A stretch of DNA of 64,000 nucleotides from Euzebyella marina. Lineage in GTDB: Bacteria; Bacteroidota; Bacteroidia; Flavobacteriales; Flavobacteriaceae. The DNA is taken from NCBI RefSeq assembly GCF_014855515.1, contig NZ_JACYFK010000001.1, forward strand, positions 1,302,001 to 1,366,000, in the 5' to 3' direction. Each line of letters begins with the position of its first letter. Position 1 is the stretch's first letter. The notes beneath the pieces are model-generated. The model did no database searches and was not told where the DNA came from. It was given only the letters and a program-made list of their open reading frames with translations. The translations under genes and the position numbers were made by a program. This document shows, one piece after another, positions 32,389 through 38,410 of the stretch.

Positions 32389-32419
32389 AAAAAAGTGTGT
32401 AAGTTTTACACACTTTTTT
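32389..32419 (+). terminator. Palindromic hairpin: terminator after DUF4301 and/or operator
   Basis: AGTGTGTAA (32394-32402) and TTACACACT (32406-32414) form a perfect inverted repeat with flanking A and T runs, so it can end transcription. The same TTACACACT word recurs at 32425-32434 and ahead of the next paralogue, so a regulatory role is also possible. Confidence 0.6.
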
Positions 32420-32424
32420 AGTTC

Positions 32425-32434
32425 GTTACACACT
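32425..32434 (+). promoter_or_regulatory. Candidate upstream activator site, paralogue 1
   Basis: GTTACACACT here is followed by gctaCTCAGTTCATTAAAAA, closely similar to the sequence after GTTTCACACT at 33905 ahead of paralogue 3. It is 96 bp ahead of the TGGCATC promoter-like sequence at 32521. A bound activator is inferred. Confidence 0.45.
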
Positions 32435-32520
32435 GCTACTCAGTTCATTAAAAATTGTTTATTTATCTAAATATATGATAATCAGTTTTTTAAACTAAAA
32501 AAAGTATACTGCGAAGCAAT

Positions 32521-32536
32521 TGGCATCTTTTTAGTT
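32521..32536 (+). promoter_or_regulatory. Sigma-54-like promoter sequence, paralogue 1
   Basis: TGGCATCTTTTTAGTT aligns to the -24/-12 consensus TGGCAyr-N4-TTGCw with a strong -24 half and two mismatches in the -12 half. An alternative reading is a non-standard -33/-7 pair, TTGG and TACTAAG at 32540-32546, 16 nt apart. The leader would be about 41 nt. Confidence 0.4.
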
Positions 32537-32587
32537 CTATACTAAGCGAATATCAAAACAAATAAATTAATCTTAACACTATTAGAA

Positions 32588-32896
32588 ATGAAAAATTTAA
32601 TGTTTGCTGCAGTATTGTCTTTAGGTACAATGACTGCTTTCGCTCAAGAAGAAGAAACAACTGTAGAAGAAGTTGCTACTGAACAAGTAGAAGCTACTCA
32701 AGATGATTACACCGAAATAGCTGCTGAAGAAGTTCCTGCTGCTATTACTGAAGCACTAGAAGCTGCTCACCCAGGTGCTACCATCTCTAAGGCTTTTATG
32801 AATGAAGAAGCTGAATATAAGCTAGAGGTTGCTAAAGAAGACGGTGAAACTGCTGAGCTATACGCTGACGCAGAAGGTAACTGGATTGAAAAGTAA
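32588..32896 (+). CDS. Small exported PepSY-like protein, paralogue 1 of 3
   Basis: The 102-residue product has a signal peptide (MKNLMFAAVLSLGTMTAFAQ), an acidic low-complexity stretch rich in Glu, Val and Thr (residues 21-45), and a C-terminal domain with VPAAITEALEAAHPGATISK, YKLEVAKEDG and YADAEGNWIE. That domain has the helix then beta-strand look of PepSY-like/BLIP-type periplasmic proteins. Its two paralogues follow in tandem, and all three share upstream elements. No function is known; periplasmic location is predicted. It is followed by its own terminator, so each copy is a separate transcript. Confidence 0.7.
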   Translation: MKNLMFAAVLSLGTMTAFAQEEETTVEEVATEQVEATQDDYTEIAAEEVPAAITEALEAAHPGATISKAFMNEEAEYKLEVAKEDGETAELYADAEGNWIEK

Positions 32897-32932
32897 TTCC
32901 TCGAGCAGATAGCCGATAATTAATCGGTGAAG

Positions 32933-32970
32933 AAAGTCCTATCAACTTTTAAAGTAGATAGGACTTTTTT
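32933..32970 (+). terminator. Rho-independent terminator after paralogue 1
   Basis: AAAGTCCTATC (32933-32943) pairs with GATAGGACTTT (32957-32967), followed by a T run. Confidence 0.85.
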
Positions 32971-33027
32971 ATTGTGCCTAATTACTCAGTTTTACCGAGT
33001 GATTCAACCTCGGCTTTATAAACCTAA

Positions 33028-33100
33028 TGTGTAACGTGTTTACTTGGTTACACACTTTTTAAATGCAGTATCCACTATTACACACATAAATATTACACGA
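33028..33100 (+). promoter_or_regulatory. Candidate upstream activator sites, paralogue 2
   Basis: TGTGTAAC (33028-33035) and GTTACACACT (33047-33056) form an inverted repeat with 11 nt between; two further half-sites are seen, ATTACACACA at 33077-33086 and ATTACACGA at 33092-33100. The GTTACACACT copy lies 102 bp ahead of the TGGTATC element at 33149. Binding is inferred. Confidence 0.45.
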
Positions 33101-33148
33101 TATTTATTAAACAACTGATTTTCAATAAATTATAAATTTTTTGATTTT

Positions 33149-33164
33149 TGGTATCATTATTTCT
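33149..33164 (+). promoter_or_regulatory. Sigma-54-like promoter sequence, paralogue 2
   Basis: TGGTATCATTATTTCT fits TGGyAyN-N4-TTGCw except T for G in the -12 TTGC. The GG and the -12 C have the required 10-11 nt spacing. The leader would be about 26 nt. No TAnnTTTG box is present. Confidence 0.45.
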
Positions 33165-33200
33165 TTACTGTAATCAGTTAATCACATAAACTCTAAGAAA

Positions 33201-33503
33201 ATGAAAAAGTTTTTTATCACCACTGTATTCGCACTAGGAACACTTACTGCTTTTGCTCAAGAAGAAGCAACTGCTGTTGAGGAAAATGCAACTGAGGCTG
33301 TAGCTCAAGATGATTTTTCAGAGGTTGCTGCTGAAGAACTACCTGAAGCTGTAACAGCTGCTGTTTCTAAAAACTATCCTACCGCGTCTATAGATAAAGC
33401 ATATGTAAACGAAGCTAAGCAATATAAACTAGAGGTTTCTCTAGAAGATGGTACTGCTGGTACTCTGTACGCTGACGAGAATGGTAACTGGATTGAAATG
33501 TAA
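33201..33503 (+). CDS. Small exported PepSY-like protein, paralogue 2 of 3
   Basis: A 100-residue protein with signal peptide MKKFFITTVFALGTLTAFAQ, an acidic spacer, and a domain with ELPEAVTAAVSKNYPTASID, YKLEVSLEDGTAG and YADENGNWIE. Residues 60-100 are nearly the same as in paralogue 3 (EVSLEDGT) and clearly related to paralogue 1. The pattern of a conserved signal peptide and C-terminal domain with a variable acidic spacer indicates tandem duplication. Location is periplasmic by prediction; role unknown. Confidence 0.7.
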   Translation: MKKFFITTVFALGTLTAFAQEEATAVEENATEAVAQDDFSEVAAEELPEAVTAAVSKNYPTASIDKAYVNEAKQYKLEVSLEDGTAGTLYADENGNWIEM

Positions 33504-33544
33504 TAACTTGAGTTATTTGTTTTGTATCAAGTTGGTTTGGTCGG

Positions 33545-33571
33545 AAAGGGATCGCTTATAGCGATCCCTTT
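33545..33571 (+). terminator. Rho-independent terminator after paralogue 2
   Basis: A perfect 12-bp stem AAAGGGATCGCT (33545-33556) with AGCGATCCCTTT (33560-33571) and a 3-nt loop lies 41 nt after the stop. Confidence 0.85.
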
Positions 33572-33875
33572 CTATTTGTAATTATTTCTTCTGTCATAAC
33601 ATTTTATCCTTCTTAGTATTAGATACTGAGATTTTAAGTTAATTGGAGAGAGGGTTCCCAAAAAGAAGAGCAGTTTAATTCCTAGATATGACTTTCCATA
33701 ATAAATAACAAAGTATCACGACACTTTTATCCTTCGCTTCAATTCCTTTAGATAATCCATCAATCGTGATGGATTTTTGCATTTAAGGGATTGGTCTTCC
33801 CGACATCTCTATTAAGTAAGGTCGTTATGCCGTTAATTACTAAGAGGGAAATATGGTTATCGGTTCCAGCTATTT
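33572..33875. other. Intergenic stretch without a recognisable gene
   Basis: About 300 nt with no convincing gene. A small hairpin ATCCATC-aatc-GTGATGGAT sits near 33757-33776. On the minus strand, between stops, one frame reads a 30-residue fragment (33715-33810 approximately) ending NPSRLMDYLKELKRRIKVS, which may be an old gene remnant or a dispersed intergenic repeat. I see no promoter here. Confidence 0.35.
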
Positions 33876-33904
33876 TTGTGAAAAAATTACCCACTCACCA
33901 TTTG

Positions 33905-33914
33905 GTTTCACACT
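33905..33914 (+). promoter_or_regulatory. Candidate upstream activator site, paralogue 3
   Basis: GTTTCACACTAATACACAG at 33905 matches GTTACACACTGCTACTCAG of paralogue 1, and a TTGTGAAA at 33876-33883 forms a partial inverted repeat with it. It is 82 bp ahead of the TGGTATC element at 33987. Binding is inferred. Confidence 0.45.
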
Positions 33915-33986
33915 AATACACAGATTAAAAATCCTTTAAAAATTTTAAGCGATTGAAAATTAGATAGTTGTGTTTTTCGTCTGTTT

Positions 33987-34002
33987 TGGTATCATATTTT
34001 CA
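33987..34002 (+). promoter_or_regulatory. Sigma-54-like promoter sequence, paralogue 3
   Basis: TGGTATCATATTTTCA matches the paralogue 2 element closely (TGGTATCAT shared, TTtC -12 half) and has the same GG-to-C spacing. The leader would be about 45 nt. TACTAAG at 34006-34012 also recurs from paralogue 1, so a different sigma factor remains possible. Confidence 0.45.
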
Positions 34003-34057
34003 ATGTACTAAGTGAATTTGATTAATAAATTATTATAATATCTAAAATTAGAACATC

Positions 34058-34366
34058 ATGAAAAAGTTATTTATCACAACCGTATTCGCTTTGGGAAGTT
34101 TAACTGCATTCGCTCAAGAAGAGCAAGCTGCTGATCAACAAGAGGCTGCTGCTACTGAAGCTGTAGCTCAAGATAGTTTTTCTGAAATTTCCCTAGAAGA
34201 AGTTCCTGAGGCTGTGACTACAATGATTGAGACCAACTATCCTGGTGCAACAATCAATAAAGCCGCTAAAAACGAAGAGAACCAATATAAAATCGAAGTT
34301 TCTCTAGAAGATGGTACTTCAGGTGCTCTTATCGTTGATGAAGAAGGTAATGCTGTAGAGCAATAA
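34058..34366 (+). CDS. Small exported PepSY-like protein, paralogue 3 of 3
   Basis: A 102-residue protein: signal peptide MKKLFITTVFALGSLTAFAQ, an acidic Gln/Ala/Glu spacer, and a C-terminal domain with EVPEAVTTMIETNYPGATIN, YKIEVSLEDGTSG and VDEEGNAVEQ. Nearly the same signal peptide as paralogue 2 shows recent duplication, while the last ten residues have diverged. It lies 177 nt ahead of the NtrC-family regulator on the same strand with a terminator between. Function unknown; periplasmic. Confidence 0.7.
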   Translation: MKKLFITTVFALGSLTAFAQEEQAADQQEAAATEAVAQDSFSEISLEEVPEAVTTMIETNYPGATINKAAKNEENQYKIEVSLEDGTSGALIVDEEGNAVEQ

Positions 34367-34403
34367 GAATAGTTAATTCTTTCTTGGGAGTAAGCTCCCG
34401 GTT

Positions 34404-34436
34404 AAAAAAGGGTCCGATTCGTTCGGGCCCTTTTTT
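34404..34436 (+). terminator. Rho-independent terminator after paralogue 3
   Basis: AAAAAAGGGTCCGA pairs (one wobble) with TCGGGCCCTTTTTT around a short loop, with a strong T run. A second small hairpin GGGAG-taag-CTCCC precedes it at 34386-34399. Confidence 0.9.
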
Positions 34437-34542
34437 ATTTTCATAGAGTTCAGGGCAGGGTATCTTTTAAGAGAAATTAAGACAGGAAACAGCTATCTTG
34501 TGTTATTTTTACGTAAATAGAAATAGAACCTATATTTCCCGT

Positions 34543-35919
34543 ATGCCAAACCTTCTTATTATTGAAGATGATGCAGCTTTTTGCCAAATGCTGCAAAAGT
34601 TTTTGACCAAACGCGGTTACGAAGTTGAGACCAGTTTCAACGCTCCTGATGCCAAGCAAAAAATTCAAAAGAGCAATTTTGATCTCATACTTACAGACCT
34701 TCGTTTGCCCGATTATGATGGCATACAACTTCTATCGGATATCAAAGCTGTAAACCCGGCTACCCAAGTAATTGTTATGACGGGCTACGCCGAGGTAGGT
34801 TCTGCGGTGAATGCCATGAAAAAGGGAGCATTCGACTACATCTCTAAACCTTTTACACCCGATGAAATAGTCATGGTCTTAGACAACGCCATGAAAGTAG
34901 AGGCGAAGATTCCTGCGAAGGTTGAAGATGATGAAGAAATTGAAGAACCTGTAAATGTGGGTGTCAGCACCCCACCGGTAAGGTCTAGAGGCTCTAAAGT
35001 GGTTAAGGGTATCAGCGATGCCTCTAAAAAATTAGATGATTACATCAAGTTGGTGGCACCGACCGATATGTCTGTTTTGATTACCGGAGAGAGCGGAACA
35101 GGTAAAGAAGTTACTGCCAAGGCGATTCACGATAACAGTAAAAGAAGAGATTTCAATTTTGTGGCCGTAGATTGTGGTGCCATTCCCAAAGAACTGGCAA
35201 CCAGTGAGTTTTTTGGCCATATTAAAGGTAGTTTTACAGGAGCTGTTGAAGATAAGGTAGGTAATTTCGAGGCTGCCAATAAGGGAACTTTGTTCTTGGA
35301 TGAGGTAGGAAATCTTAGCTACGAAAACCAAATTCAGCTTTTAAGGGCGCTTCAGGAGAGGAAGATAAAAAGAGTGGGAAGCACAAAGGAAATTAATGTA
35401 GATGTACGCATTATCACTGCCACAAATGAAGATTTGACCGATGCCGTTGAAAAAGGAAACTTCAGGGAAGATCTCTATCATAGACTTAACGAATTCTCTA
35501 TTGAAATTCCTTCTTTAGAAGACCGTTTTGAAGACTTAATGCTTTTTGCGGAGAATTTTCTTGATAAGGCTAATGCCAGTTTAGATAAGAATGTACAAGG
35601 GTTTTCAAAAGAAGTTTTAGAAGCTTTTCAGCAATATCATTGGCCAGGTAATTTACGGGAGCTTCAAAATGTTATCAAAAGGGCGGTGTTATTGACTGCC
35701 GGAAACGAGGTCGAGATTTCGGCGCTACCTAAAGAAGTCTTGCAACCACAAGAAAAAGTTACGGTGGCAGAGGGTTTTTCAAAGTCGGAGTTTGAAAAAG
35801 AAAGAATTATAAAGGCCCTGAAAAAGACGAATTTCAATAAATCGAAAGCTGCAAAATTACTGCAGGTTACCCGTAAAACGCTGTATAATAAGATTAACCA
35901 CTATAATTTGGACTTGTAG
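34543..35919 (+). CDS. NtrC-family sigma-54-dependent response regulator
   Basis: The 458-residue protein has a receiver domain (residues 1-120; acidic pocket EDD at 8-10, phospho-acceptor Asp52 in LTDLRLPD), an AAA+ sigma-54 interaction domain with Walker A GESGTGKE and the GAFTGA-loop variant GSFTGA (KGSFTGAVED), and a C-terminal Fis-type helix-turn-helix (NKSKAAKLLQVTRKTLYNKI). It should open sigma-54 promoters when phosphorylated. The ATG at 34543 gives the standard MPNLLIIEDD start. It is convergent with the hybrid kinase (26-nt overlap), a likely cognate pair, and follows the three PepSY-like genes with sigma-54-like promoters. Confidence 0.9.
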   Translation: MPNLLIIEDDAAFCQMLQKFLTKRGYEVETSFNAPDAKQKIQKSNFDLILTDLRLPDYDGIQLLSDIKAVNPATQVIVMTGYAEVGSAVNAMKKGAFDYISKPFTPDEIVMVLDNAMKVEAKIPAKVEDDEEIEEPVNVGVSTPPVRSRGSKVVKGISDASKKLDDYIKLVAPTDMSVLITGESGTGKEVTAKAIHDNSKRRDFNFVAVDCGAIPKELATSEFFGHIKGSFTGAVEDKVGNFEAANKGTLFLDEVGNLSYENQIQLLRALQERKIKRVGSTKEINVDVRIITATNEDLTDAVEKGNFREDLYHRLNEFSIEIPSLEDRFEDLMLFAENFLDKANASLDKNVQGFSKEVLEAFQQYHWPGNLRELQNVIKRAVLLTAGNEVEISALPKEVLQPQEKVTVAEGFSKSEFEKERIIKALKKTNFNKSKAAKLLQVTRKTLYNKINHYNLDL

Positions 35920-38410
35920 CCAACCGTTCTTCCAGCTCTTTGGTCAATAGGGCCACTTCCCTTTTTAATTCGGTAAAAGATTCATCCATCTCGCCCCATT
36001 CCATTTTATCAGGCTTGGCCAATTCGAGGTTCTCAAGAATGCCGACACTTTTATTCACCTTCAATTGCCTGAACATCGGCAACATACGATGGGCCACTTG
36101 ATTGACTTGAGGGTAATCTCTGTAGCTTACCGTCTGCTCTAAAAGCGACATATTGGTTTTGGTATCGCTCAAAAAAGTTGCCAATACATCAAAAATGGCA
36201 TCTTCGTTAGTGCCCAAAAATGAATGTATAATATCTAGATTGTATAGCTGTGAAGTTTCTTTTTCCTCCTTTTTAACTACAACTTCTACATTGCTTTTTG
36301 TCGATGGTTTCTCTTCAGGCTCCGTTACGATACCCATTAGTTTTAAGGTCGCAACGAGTTCGCCTTTTGAGAAAGGTTTTTGCAAAACTTGGGAGAACCC
36401 TACGCCAATATAGGCCTCTGGCCCAAGGTCTCTTCTTCCCGTCATCGCAATGATGGGTTGCTTTTTATAGTGTTTGTAGTTGCCCGATTGAAGTTTTTTC
36501 AAAACTTCAAAACCCGTAACCTGGGGCATTTGAATATCGGTAAGTACTATATCATACGCTAAATGCGAATCTTGTTCGATAGAGAGAAAATTGGTGTATG
36601 TATGAACGGTGATACCCATACTTTCGGCCAGTTCGCGTAACATATGTAGCAAAGCGGTATCGTCATCGATAATCAACATTCGTAATTTGGGCGCCATATA
36701 AGGCATAGACTTGTCGGTCTCTTTTACGGCATCCGTTATTTCTAAAGGCAGGGCAAGCGTGAAGGTGCTGCCTTTACCGACCTCACTTTCTAAAGTAAGC
36801 TTGCCTTTGAGCAGTTCTGCCAATTTTCTCGAAATGGTAAGACCGAGCCCGTAACCTCCAAATTTTTTCTCGGTGTCTTTTTCGGCCTGAGTAAATTCTT
36901 TGAATATTAAATGCTGCTTGTTTTTGGCAATTCCGATGCCCGTATCCGAAACCGATATTTTTGCCAAAATACCTCGAGCTTTGCCTTTTTCAGCAATGGC
37001 ATTCACTTTAACATGACCCTCTTCGGTAAATTTAAAAGCATTGCCCAATAGGTTCGTGAGAATCTGTCTTATACGAAAAGGGTCGCCTAAAACCGTTTTC
37101 TCGAACACGGGGTCGATATTCAAAATAAGTTTGAGTCCCTTGTCTTTGTGAATAGCCTGTAGGTTTTCCGCTGTTTCTTGAATAAGATTGGCAGGTATAA
37201 AAGGAACATTTTCTATATTGAGTTTGCCTGCTTCCAGTTTCGAGAAATCGAGCAGATCATTGACCAGGTTACCTACGTACTGAGAGGCCGATTTTACATT
37301 TTTAATGTAGCCTTTTTGTTTTTGCGAAAGCTCGGTACTTTCCAATAATTCTGAGTAACCTCCAATAGTGTTCAAGGGTGTTCTTAAATCATGGCTAACC
37401 GTTGAAATCAGCTGTTCTCTGCTTCTAAGAAGCGATTCTGAAAACTTCTTTTCTTTCTCCAATTTGGCACGATAAGTCTGTACTTTCCAATAATCGCGGG
37501 TAATCAAGAATGAGAAAATGGCAACAATAACAAAGCCAAGTAATGCGGCAAGGCCGGCAATTCGAGTGGTTCTTCTTAAGGTTTCCCTTTTTTTAAGACT
37601 ATTGTTATAACTACTTGTTATGACCTCTTGTTCGAACGCGGCAATTATGTTCTGTAACTGTTGCGAAAGTTCGAGGTCGTTGCGGCTCATTTCAATCTCT
37701 TTTAAAGCCAGCGATCGTTGCGATCGGGTGTCGGCCAACTTCGCCTTTCGGATCATCGTTTTAGAGACGTTCAATATAGAATCTACATAGGCCGCATTTT
37801 GGGTGGCATCACCATTTTGGGGGGCATTGCTGCTAATGAGCGCTGCATATTCCCTTAGCGAACGTTGTACTTGGGGCGATAACTTATCAAACTCTGAAAA
37901 AAGATTCTCGGCTGAAAATTTCCCAAAAGACTCCTCTATCTTTTCGAATTCCTTTAGGGCCTTATCCAATGAATTATTGTTGGCGCTACTCACTTTAAGC
38001 TTTCGAAGTTCACCGTTATTGGCTACTTTTTGCTTTAACAGTACTTGAAGACTGTCTAAAAGGTCTTTCTGCTCCTGGCCCAACATGAGCTGTTTGAGCG
38101 TGTCGATTTGCGTTTGAACCGAATCGATTTTTTTGGAATATGCGCTAAAAGAAAGTTGATTGCCGTTTTGAATGGCCAGTTTTGAGAGACTTTCGGCTTC
38201 GTACAAATTAGTCACCAATGAGCTGGTTCGCAAAAGCTTTTCATCATTGGTGTCATTGGTTTCGGTAGAAATATAGGTCTGTATCTCAGTATAGATAAAA
38301 TAACCGACACCTGCTGTGAGCAATGCCAAAACGAGGTAACTGGCAATGATTTTTAGGGTGAATTTATTTTTAGATCTTCCTGTTTCCGTTCCCATAGTAT
38401 TCTTTTTCAA
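35894..38410 (-). CDS. Hybrid sensor histidine kinase with receiver and Hpt domains
   Basis: An 838-residue membrane protein: TM1 near residues 20-40, a helical periplasmic sensor region (about 45-270), TM2 near 275-295, HisKA with VSHDLRTPLN (near residue 340), HATPase_c with GNAFKFTEEG, GIGIAKNK and GGYGLGLTIS, a receiver domain with IIDDD and LTDIQMPQ, and a C-terminal Hpt domain with histidine in VAHRMLPMFRQL. This gives a complete phosphorelay in one chain whose final acceptor is probably the regulator converging on it. The helical sensor region has no recognised ligand domain. The start may be the ATG at 38410 or the one five codons later. Confidence 0.88.
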   Translation of the reverse strand: MKKNTMGTETGRSKNKFTLKIIASYLVLALLTAGVGYFIYTEIQTYISTETNDTNDEKLLRTSSLVTNLYEAESLSKLAIQNGNQLSFSAYSKKIDSVQTQIDTLKQLMLGQEQKDLLDSLQVLLKQKVANNGELRKLKVSSANNNSLDKALKEFEKIEESFGKFSAENLFSEFDKLSPQVQRSLREYAALISSNAPQNGDATQNAAYVDSILNVSKTMIRKAKLADTRSQRSLALKEIEMSRNDLELSQQLQNIIAAFEQEVITSSYNNSLKKRETLRRTTRIAGLAALLGFVIVAIFSFLITRDYWKVQTYRAKLEKEKKFSESLLRSREQLISTVSHDLRTPLNTIGGYSELLESTELSQKQKGYIKNVKSASQYVGNLVNDLLDFSKLEAGKLNIENVPFIPANLIQETAENLQAIHKDKGLKLILNIDPVFEKTVLGDPFRIRQILTNLLGNAFKFTEEGHVKVNAIAEKGKARGILAKISVSDTGIGIAKNKQHLIFKEFTQAEKDTEKKFGGYGLGLTISRKLAELLKGKLTLESEVGKGSTFTLALPLEITDAVKETDKSMPYMAPKLRMLIIDDDTALLHMLRELAESMGITVHTYTNFLSIEQDSHLAYDIVLTDIQMPQVTGFEVLKKLQSGNYKHYKKQPIIAMTGRRDLGPEAYIGVGFSQVLQKPFSKGELVATLKLMGIVTEPEEKPSTKSNVEVVVKKEEKETSQLYNLDIIHSFLGTNEDAIFDVLATFLSDTKTNMSLLEQTVSYRDYPQVNQVAHRMLPMFRQLKVNKSVGILENLELAKPDKMEWGEMDESFTELKREVALLTKELEERLATSPNYSG

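Follow-up and report, generated by a model that had tools for sequence, protein, structure and literature searches.

A candidate sigma-54-dependent regulon of PepSY-like genes beside an NtrC-family activator gene in Euzebyella marina

Related systems and the Euzebyella marina locus

The ZraSR–ZraP system of Escherichia coli and Salmonella consists of a sensor kinase and an NtrC-type activator, together with a small periplasmic protein and a sigma-54 promoter (PMC4987338). Within the Flavobacteriaceae, the −24/−12 promoters of Flavobacterium psychrophilum, which possesses one RpoN, have been mapped by 5′-end RNA sequencing as the sigma-54 (SM4) regulon, which includes skp, groES, and grpE (PMC9723704). 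The view taken in the sequence-only reading, that few such regulons are described in the phylum, is therefore only partly right. In the sections of that report available to us, the activators are not assigned to promoters and no module of PepSY protein, NtrC-type activator, and kinase is named (PMC9723704). PepSY-like (DUF2874) genes of Bacteroidia have been found near sensor kinases, namely PG0717 near PG0719–0720, and BT0922–0923; by comparison with the present locus these are tied to hemin or iron, and the available sections of the two reports describe no sigma-54 promoter (PMC3764172, PMC10434189). A non-canonical sigma-54 promoter, TGGCAG-N7-CTCTT, is known experimentally for E. coli dcuD (PMC12316311). 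A word search of the open-access literature returned no PepSY/NtrC/sigma-54 module in the titles or abstract beginnings among the matches listed.

The window (the whole 64,000-nucleotide stretch of E. marina DNA analyzed) contains, in tandem on the forward strand, g1 (32588–32896), encoding a small exported PepSY-like protein of 102 amino acid residues, and g2 (33201–33503) and g3 (34058–34366), encoding PepSY-like proteins of 100 and 102 residues. Against the PF11396 (DUF2874) profile these score 18.2, 23.0, and 23.9 bits, where the curated cut-off is 28.3; the best PDB profile matches are 3due and 3db7, and the model of g2 weakly resembles DUF2874 structures (top Foldseek E values 0.012–0.029, none reaching 0.001). 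Terminator-like hairpins are found on the forward strand 3′ of g2 (33543–33573) and between g3 and the activator gene (34403–34437). The latter gene (34543–35919, forward strand, 458 residues) is followed by a convergent hybrid histidine kinase gene (35894–38410, reverse strand). This arrangement of PepSY genes, promoter, half-sites, activator, and kinase is found again in related genera.

The likeness to ZraSR–ZraP lies in a kinase and an NtrC-type activator switching on a small exported protein, here from a predicted sigma-54-type promoter. However, the effector is PepSY-like rather than ZraP and is present in one to five copies, and the kinase is hybrid and convergently transcribed, whereas ZraPSR is a divergent, autoregulated operon. 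With F. psychrophilum, E. marina shares the family, a single RpoN, and −24/−12 promoters, predicted here. We surmise, with a probability of roughly 0.8, that the locus is a local two-component, sigma-54-dependent regulon in which the effectors are PepSY proteins and the −12 element is non-canonical.

Promoter-like sites and the −12 element

Each gene is preceded on the forward strand by a predicted sigma-54-type promoter: TTGGCATCTTTTTAGT at 32520–32535 for g1, TTGGTATCATTATTTC at 33148–33163 for g2, and TTGGTATCATATTTTC at 33986–34001 for g3. The underlying TGGCATC/TGGTATC sequences had been placed at 32521, 33149, and 33987, positions that proved correct on re-reading, and the g2 site has the same sequence in a congener. 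At all three, the −24 element carries GG in a TGGYA context and the distance from GG to the −12 dinucleotide is 10 bp; that dinucleotide is GT in g1, the weakest of the three, and TC in g2 and g3, so that GC is absent from each. A promoter matrix was trained on 166 orthologous sites, with the window and three further loci (L137, L138, and L190) excluded; six of the 166 lie in coding sequence, and the matrix was kept as built. Over 127,958 window positions the sites of g3, g2, and g1 ranked first, second, and fourth, with 26.6, 24.0, and 11.8 bits, any other site scoring at most 12.1. Thus the g2 and g3 sites stand by matrix score and that of g1 is weak; the latter draws its support mainly from its position, half-sites, and orthologues.

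The search for the same motif pair in related genomes, as had been proposed, was run on 203 Flavobacteriaceae PepSY genes not situated close behind another (non-following genes). A GG-N10 promoter-like site was present at 198, a count that followed the reading of 20 regions with a doubtful TGG site or none, compared with 38/203 in the reverse-strand control; at 176/203 it was accompanied by an upstream half-site of the TTACACA/TGTGTAA type. Five genes lack the site, and 22 have it without a strict half-site. The base 5′ of GG is T in 178 of the 198 sites, C in 16, A in three, and G in one. These sites, like the groES and grpE controls, were chosen without scoring the −12 dinucleotide, which is TC in 139, CC in 24, CT in 18, GT in six, GC in four, and something else in seven. 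A 180-site set (180/226) required TGG, missing CGG sites, and favored sites whose second −12 base is C; GC stood at the −12 place in 12 of the 180 at first, and in 6/174 after removal of six sites lying inside the preceding PepSY coding sequence (non-following sites: TC 126, CC 19, CT 16, GC 6, GT 5, CG 1, AC 1), a fall that weighs slightly against the sigma-54 reading.

A stricter regular expression matched in 103 of 159 cases, in none on the reverse strand, and in a mean of 0.25 over 20 shuffles. The −24/−12 expression alone occurred at 333 places in seven genomes and its backward version at 190, an excess too modest to be taken as proof, while the composite of promoter and half-site occurred at 15 places in eight genomes, 14 of them at a PepSY cluster (backward control, three). 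The −24/−12 spacing is kept in orthologues, although it appears to be 1 bp shorter in some Arenibacter first copies.

The −12 halves had been called imperfect. This holds insofar as GC is lacking at g1–g3, but TTTC is a conserved form rather than decay, since it also occurs at skp: the −12 element is TTTC in 30/30 skp loci fetched, the mapping of skp to sigma-54 being that of F. psychrophilum, whose own skp promoter may carry the same form. Judged by sequence conservation, TTTC is an alternative common to skp and PepSY genes. Because GC is wanting (GT, TC, and TC in the window; GC in only 6/174 elsewhere), the PepSY promoters would be a non-canonical sigma-54 variant and not canonical members. 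They resemble dcuD in having a −12 element far from TTGC; promoters of the dcuD type are single exceptions, whereas here the G-less −12 is family-wide in gene classes. E. coli glnHp2 is a possible TTTC precedent, to which no weight is given.

It could be argued that TTGGYAY...TTTC has nothing to do with sigma-54. The TTG would then be the −33 box recognized by the primary sigma factor or by an ECF factor, and the conserved run of T and the C would form part of that promoter or of a repressor site. The absence of G at −12, which the groES and grpE promoters of relatives retain, speaks for this, as does the expectation of one sigma-54 motif. We regard it as very unlikely: TAnnTTTG is depleted (16/159 versus 30.8 in shuffles), GG is retained exactly 10 bp from the C, with GC occupying the −12 place in 6/174, the TTTC is shared by skp, which is mapped to sigma-54 in F. 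psychrophilum, and the neighboring gene encodes a sigma-54 activator. The housekeeping TAnnTTTG box, said to be missing from all three genes, is indeed missing from the intergenic regions of g1 and g2; one is found in that of g3 at 33871, at a distance of 187 bp from the start codon and farther upstream than the g3 half-sites.

Since groES and grpE keep G at −12 where the others have TTTC, the two classes might be served by different factors. A tentative reading, which we hold to be possible rather than probable, is that one RpoN serves two stable −12 classes: TTG-N at groES/grpE, in which G is invariant and C may vary, and TTT-C at skp/PepSY, in which C is invariant and G is mostly lacking.

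Upstream half-sites and the adjoining activator

The GTTwCACACT elements noted farther upstream had been placed correctly, GTTACACACT at 32425 and 33047 and GTTTCACACT at 33905, which is 96, 102, and 82 bp from the respective promoters. These are the only three in 64 kb, all on the forward strand and one per PepSY gene, where a first-order Markov model predicts 0.24 and the maximum over 100 simulations was two. The inverted repeats reported for two of them were likewise found, at 32396/32406 and 33028/33048. Upstream of g1, a 31-nt inverted repeat with 14-nt arms (32389–32419) encloses TGTGTAA-N3-TTACACA (32396–32412), a candidate activator site; since A6/T6 flank the repeat, it may double as the terminator of the preceding gene. 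A further TTACACA (32426–32432, forward strand) lies 95 bp 5′ of the g1 TGG. For g2, TGTGTAA (33028) and TTACACA (33048) are inverted and 20 bp apart (33028–33054), and another TTACACA (33078–33084, forward strand) is situated 71 bp 5′ of the TGG, while g3 has TTTCACA (33906) and ATACACA (33916) on the forward strand (33906–33922), 81 and 71 bp 5′ of its TGG. Each gene would possess its own sigma-54-type promoter and evenly spaced candidate activator sites.

In promoters of the family, half-sites peak at 70–73 and 92–96 bp upstream, which the 71 bp of g2 and 95 bp of g1 fit, and show a periodicity of ~10.5 bp (71, 83, 93, and, weakly, 103 and 113 bp upstream); the commonest TGTGTAW-to-WTACACA offset is 10 (35 cases). 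Phasing at 10.5 bp, with kinship ignored throughout, gave R=0.73 (n=230), R=0.74 with following genes excluded (n=229), and R=0.61 over 81 clusters sharing <10% of 8-mers, a set that possibly includes the six coding-sequence sites. Candidate activator sites are phased with the promoter and lie ~70–150 bp upstream. The tandem arrangement and the identity of g1 (58%) and g3 (67%) to g2 might suggest that the shared elements are functionless relics of recent duplication. This was rejected as scarcely credible: the elements persist across genera in those 81 clusters, whose flanks have diverged, and 23/80 activator loci have only one PepSY homologue within the sequence covered, most with a promoter-like site.

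The next gene had been read as an NtrC-family activator, and its product scores above the cut-offs for PF00072, PF00158, and PF02954 (receiver, sigma-54 AAA+, and Fis-type HTH). The kinase comprises HisKA, HATPase, and receiver domains and an N-terminal region presumed to be the sensor; a conserved His stretch at its C-terminus is, in our reading, HPt-like. The genome encodes one RpoN and seven strong AAA+ activator domains. The GAFTGA-type loop of this activator is the variant GSFTGA, with phenylalanine and threonine kept, and is found in 114/115 matches (120 loci, five without a match); five loops read among the other six strong activators are GAFTGA (three), GAFTSA, and GSFTGA. The idea that this loop accounts for the unusual −12 finds no support within the clade, because loci with GC at −12 (such as L223, L238, and L252) carry it too, and TTTC also stands at skp, whose activator may be a different one; the loop is retained only as part of the two-class reading.

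Convergence of hybrid kinase and activator is seen in 116/116 activator loci, and the activator adjoins PepSY genes in 76/80 and 36/40 loci of two sets. Among 100 genomes (kinship ignored) 36 have both activator and PepSY, two have one only, and 62 have neither, so that PepSY is present in 36 of the 37 activator-bearing genomes; the exceptions are G025 (activator without detected PepSY) and G101 (PepSY without activator). Among loci with full flanks, L161 also has an activator without detected PepSY. The exported PepSY-like family occurs in 138/395 Flavobacteriaceae genomes. Autoregulation of the activator through sigma-54, by which ZraSR–ZraP differs from this system, was rejected, the 72 activator upstreams searched yielding no promoter-like element and half-sites in one. 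Control of skp by the PepSY-linked activator is unsupported as well: 17 of 19 skp upstreams examined contain no half-site-like 6-mer, L286 one, and L289 two scattered.

The promoters might depend on sigma-54 and yet answer to one of the other six activators, with a nucleoid protein or some further regulator occupying the array. Half-sites do vary in number and arrangement, and 22 of the 203 genes lack a strict one. We consider this unlikely in view of the co-occurrence of PepSY with this one activator and their adjacency, the absence of arrays at the activator's own gene and at skp, and helical phasing at activator-like distances. Where PepSY clusters have no adjoining activator, half-sites were kept in 4/4 fetched. 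The proposal of sigma-54-type promoters served by the adjacent activator is thereby supported, as far as sequence can tell, by spacing, phasing, co-occurrence, and the single RpoN.

Proposed mechanism and significance

The direct observations are where the sites lie, their conservation and phasing, the linkage and co-occurrence of the genes, and the domain make-up; from these we infer RpoN use, activator binding, a phosphorelay, the signal, and a role for the PepSY proteins as follows. The kinase would sense an envelope or extracellular signal and phosphorylate the activator, probably via its own receiver and HPt-like tail. The activator would bind TGTGTAA/TTACACA half-sites on one face of the DNA, ~70–125 bp upstream of the promoter of each PepSY gene, and remodel RpoN polymerase held at TTGGYAY-N5-TTTC. 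Such remodeling at its own promoter would switch on each PepSY gene separately, g2 and g3 ending in the terminator-like hairpins; elsewhere, a copy situated close behind another is probably transcribed by read-through. The PepSY proteins may act as a buffer in the envelope or exert feedback on the kinase, in the manner of ZraP on ZraSR.

The analysis offers a family-wide set of activator, promoter, and target for the Bacteroidota, where activators in the mapped species were unassigned in the sections available (PMC9723704), and proposes a candidate regulator for the exported PepSY-like family. It suggests that a class of sigma-54 targets would here escape any scan that insists on a −12 TTGC, and it provides a natural setting in which to test whether the G or the C of the −12 GC is the half that counts. 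If the two-class reading is true, the classes would differ in closed-complex stability or leakiness, suiting different activators, and one sigma-54 regulon would be split into a cytoplasmic arm and an envelope arm.

The PepSY genes and their promoter-like sites

The 4.67-Mb flavobacterial genome that contains the window encodes one RpoN and seven strong sigma-54 activator domains. One sigma-54 activator of this genome, with GAFTSA in place of GAFTGA, lies approximately 6 kb from grpE (L002, C4); another, with GAFTGA, lies near groES (L007). The three tandem PepSY-like genes (g1, 32588..32896; g2, 33201..33503; g3, 34058..34366; all forward strand) specify exported-looking products of approximately 100 amino acid residues, whose PepSY_like matches fall under the family cut-off. 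The structure predicted for g2 (mean pLDDT 73.6; pTM 0.52) shows its best likeness, a weak one, to DUF2874 periplasmic proteins; the title of the paper on the first DUF2874 structure hints at a possible inhibitory role (PMC2954215). Downstream are the gene for an NtrC-type activator (34543..35919, forward strand), for which the closest relative with a species name among the loci found is from Euzebyella saccharophila (90% identity), and a convergent hybrid histidine kinase gene (35894..38410, reverse strand).

Re-reading of the window found every coordinate of the sequence-only reading to be correct, and the motif finding is real: GTTwCACACT precedes g1, g2, and g3 in the same orientation and is found nowhere else in the 64 kb (three occurrences; expected 0.24). 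The absence of the housekeeping box TAnnTTTG, also claimed, holds for g1 and g2 and fails for g3, where one lies at 33871, upstream of the half-sites. The activator palindrome at 32389-32419 is flanked by A6/T6 and could also form a terminator-like hairpin, so that one sequence may have two roles.

The -24/-12 sites (TGG at 32521, 33149, and 33987) were scored with a matrix derived from 166 orthologous sites, six of them probably false, from which the window, L137, L138, and L190 had been left out. Over 127,958 window positions the g3 (26.6 bits) and g2 (24.0 bits) sites were the two best, the next reaching 12.1 bits; the g1 site was fourth (11.8 bits), and g1 thus rests on its position, half-sites, and orthologues.

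PepSY homologues were detected in 138 of 395 Flavobacteriaceae genomes at E 1e-6, and within the stretch covered in 76 of the 80 loci found with the activator; of the other four, three (L166, L167, and L205) start less than 400 bases from the activator and one, L161, is fully flanked. A second set of 40 regions was selected around PepSY matches; 36 of them contain the activator, and at least three of the 40 duplicate loci of the first set (L232/L145, L251/L162, L255/L204). Removal of short and identical PepSY upstream regions left 226 of 232. Of the 203 genes with no other PepSY gene closely ahead of them, 198 are preceded by a GG-N10 promoter-like site (38/203 on the reverse strand under the same rule), and the motif pair described in the window, site plus half-site, recurs ahead of 176 of these homologues; 16 of 23 close followers lack the site. 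A stricter expression matched 103 of 159 regions in the first set, versus none on the reverse strand and a mean of 0.25 in 20 shuffles, while TAnnTTTG was rarer than chance there (16 versus 30.8 in shuffles). Comparison across relatives thus backs the sigma-54-type reading of the PepSY promoters. In several first PepSY copies of Arenibacter (L175, L164, L172, L181) the -24 and -12 elements seem to stand one base closer together, as in TTGGCACGATTTTGC; their spacing may therefore vary.

Phased half-sites and the activator

Upstream of TGG, the half-site WTACACA peaks at distances of 71-72, 83, 93-94, 101-105 (the weaker group), and 113-114 bp; of the 229 half-sites that precede non-following genes, these five groups hold 37, 56, 51, 20, and 50. 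The inverse form, TGTGTAW, peaks at 123-125 bp. Periodicity is best near 10.5 bp (R 0.73, n=230; 0.18 at 9 bp). It is kept in 81 upstream clusters sharing <10% of 8-mers (R 0.61, 86 half-sites), a value reached by 0 of 20,000 random placements, and 64 of these clusters have a half-site 40-140 bp upstream versus 11.5 expected. These phasing and enrichment tests account at most partly for shared descent. The composite half-site and promoter pattern occurs at 15 places in eight genomes, 14 of them at the PepSY cluster, and the backward pattern at three; in its strict form g3 alone matches in the E. marina genome, and there is no match in G028.

The -24/-12 element is present at skp promoters, but 17 of 19 examined lack a half-site-like 6-mer, and the other two have scattered ones only. 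Four fetched PepSY clusters without an adjoining activator (L224, L231, L236, L239) all keep half-sites and [T/C]GG sites, which argues for control in trans; an activator was seen elsewhere in the same genome in each of the three cases covered (G032, G098, G247; the fourth cluster is in G389). Of 100 genomes, taken as a subset of the 395, 36 have both activator and PepSY, G025 has only the activator, G101 has only PepSY, and 62 have neither (Fisher p 7e-25, phylogeny ignored). The 9 kb surrounding the G025 activator yielded no PepSY homologue. Of four further activator regions, L309, L310, and L311 have the promoter-like site in its usual form, L310 and L311 keep half-sites, and L308 has neither. 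Control of the PepSY promoters by sigma-54 and the activator is, as judged from these comparisons, a well-supported interpretation.

The kinase and comparison with ZraSR-ZraP

The kinase gene is convergent with the activator gene in all 116 loci examined (duplicates counted), the ends mostly overlapping or nearly abutting, with gaps >100 bp in three; a 20-base tail-to-tail overlap is the commonest spacing. At 35894-35919 in the window the overlap is 20 bases, stops not counted. An alignment of 113 kinases shows conservation of the HisKA histidine, the receiver region, the C-terminal stretch HrMLpMFrQL, and parts of the presumed N-terminal sensor region. We interpret the C-terminal stretch as an HPt-like domain; a Pfam search of the kinase reported no HPt domain. 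Together with the histidine and receiver, it makes a phosphorelay to the activator likely.

In its workings the module would resemble ZraSR-ZraP, in which a sensor kinase and an NtrC-type activator control a small exported effector from a sigma-54 promoter (PMC4987338). The present module is not a member of that system, since the profiles applied show no relationship for its effector, its gene order differs, and activator autoregulation was not found in 72 activator upstream regions (promoter-like element 0/72; half-sites 1/72). The PepSY proteins may feed back on the kinase or buffer the envelope.

The -12 element

Among family and order relatives, G is kept as the first -12 base at 29 of the 29 groES sites that 30 loci yielded, and at 29 of 30 grpE sites. 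At non-following PepSY sites the -12 dinucleotide is TC in 126 of 174 and GC in six. The skp -12 is TTTC, without the usual G, in 30 of 30 loci (the best 30 of 60 genomes with a match), and 28 of these 30 family loci share TTGGCAYGATATTTTC as the skp/ompH promoter sequence (L257, from E. marina; L277-L306). In six loci (L077, L079, L081, L085, L090, L102) the groES promoter is preceded, at a distance of approximately 40 bp, by another TGGCATTTTTT... stretch, after which most of them have a CTGAAAC-TTTGTCAG-like inverted sequence; this is perhaps a site of a chaperone activator.

The genes groES, grpE, and skp are in the list of sigma-54 (SM4) promoters given for F. psychrophilum from mapped 5′ ends (PMC9723704), and known exceptions in E. 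coli, dcuD among them, show that a deviant -12 is tolerated by sigma-54 (PMC12316311). A -12 element without G therefore appears compatible with sigma-54 in this family, the TTTC having been read in the 30 fetched skp loci of relatives and the mapped start being that of F. psychrophilum.
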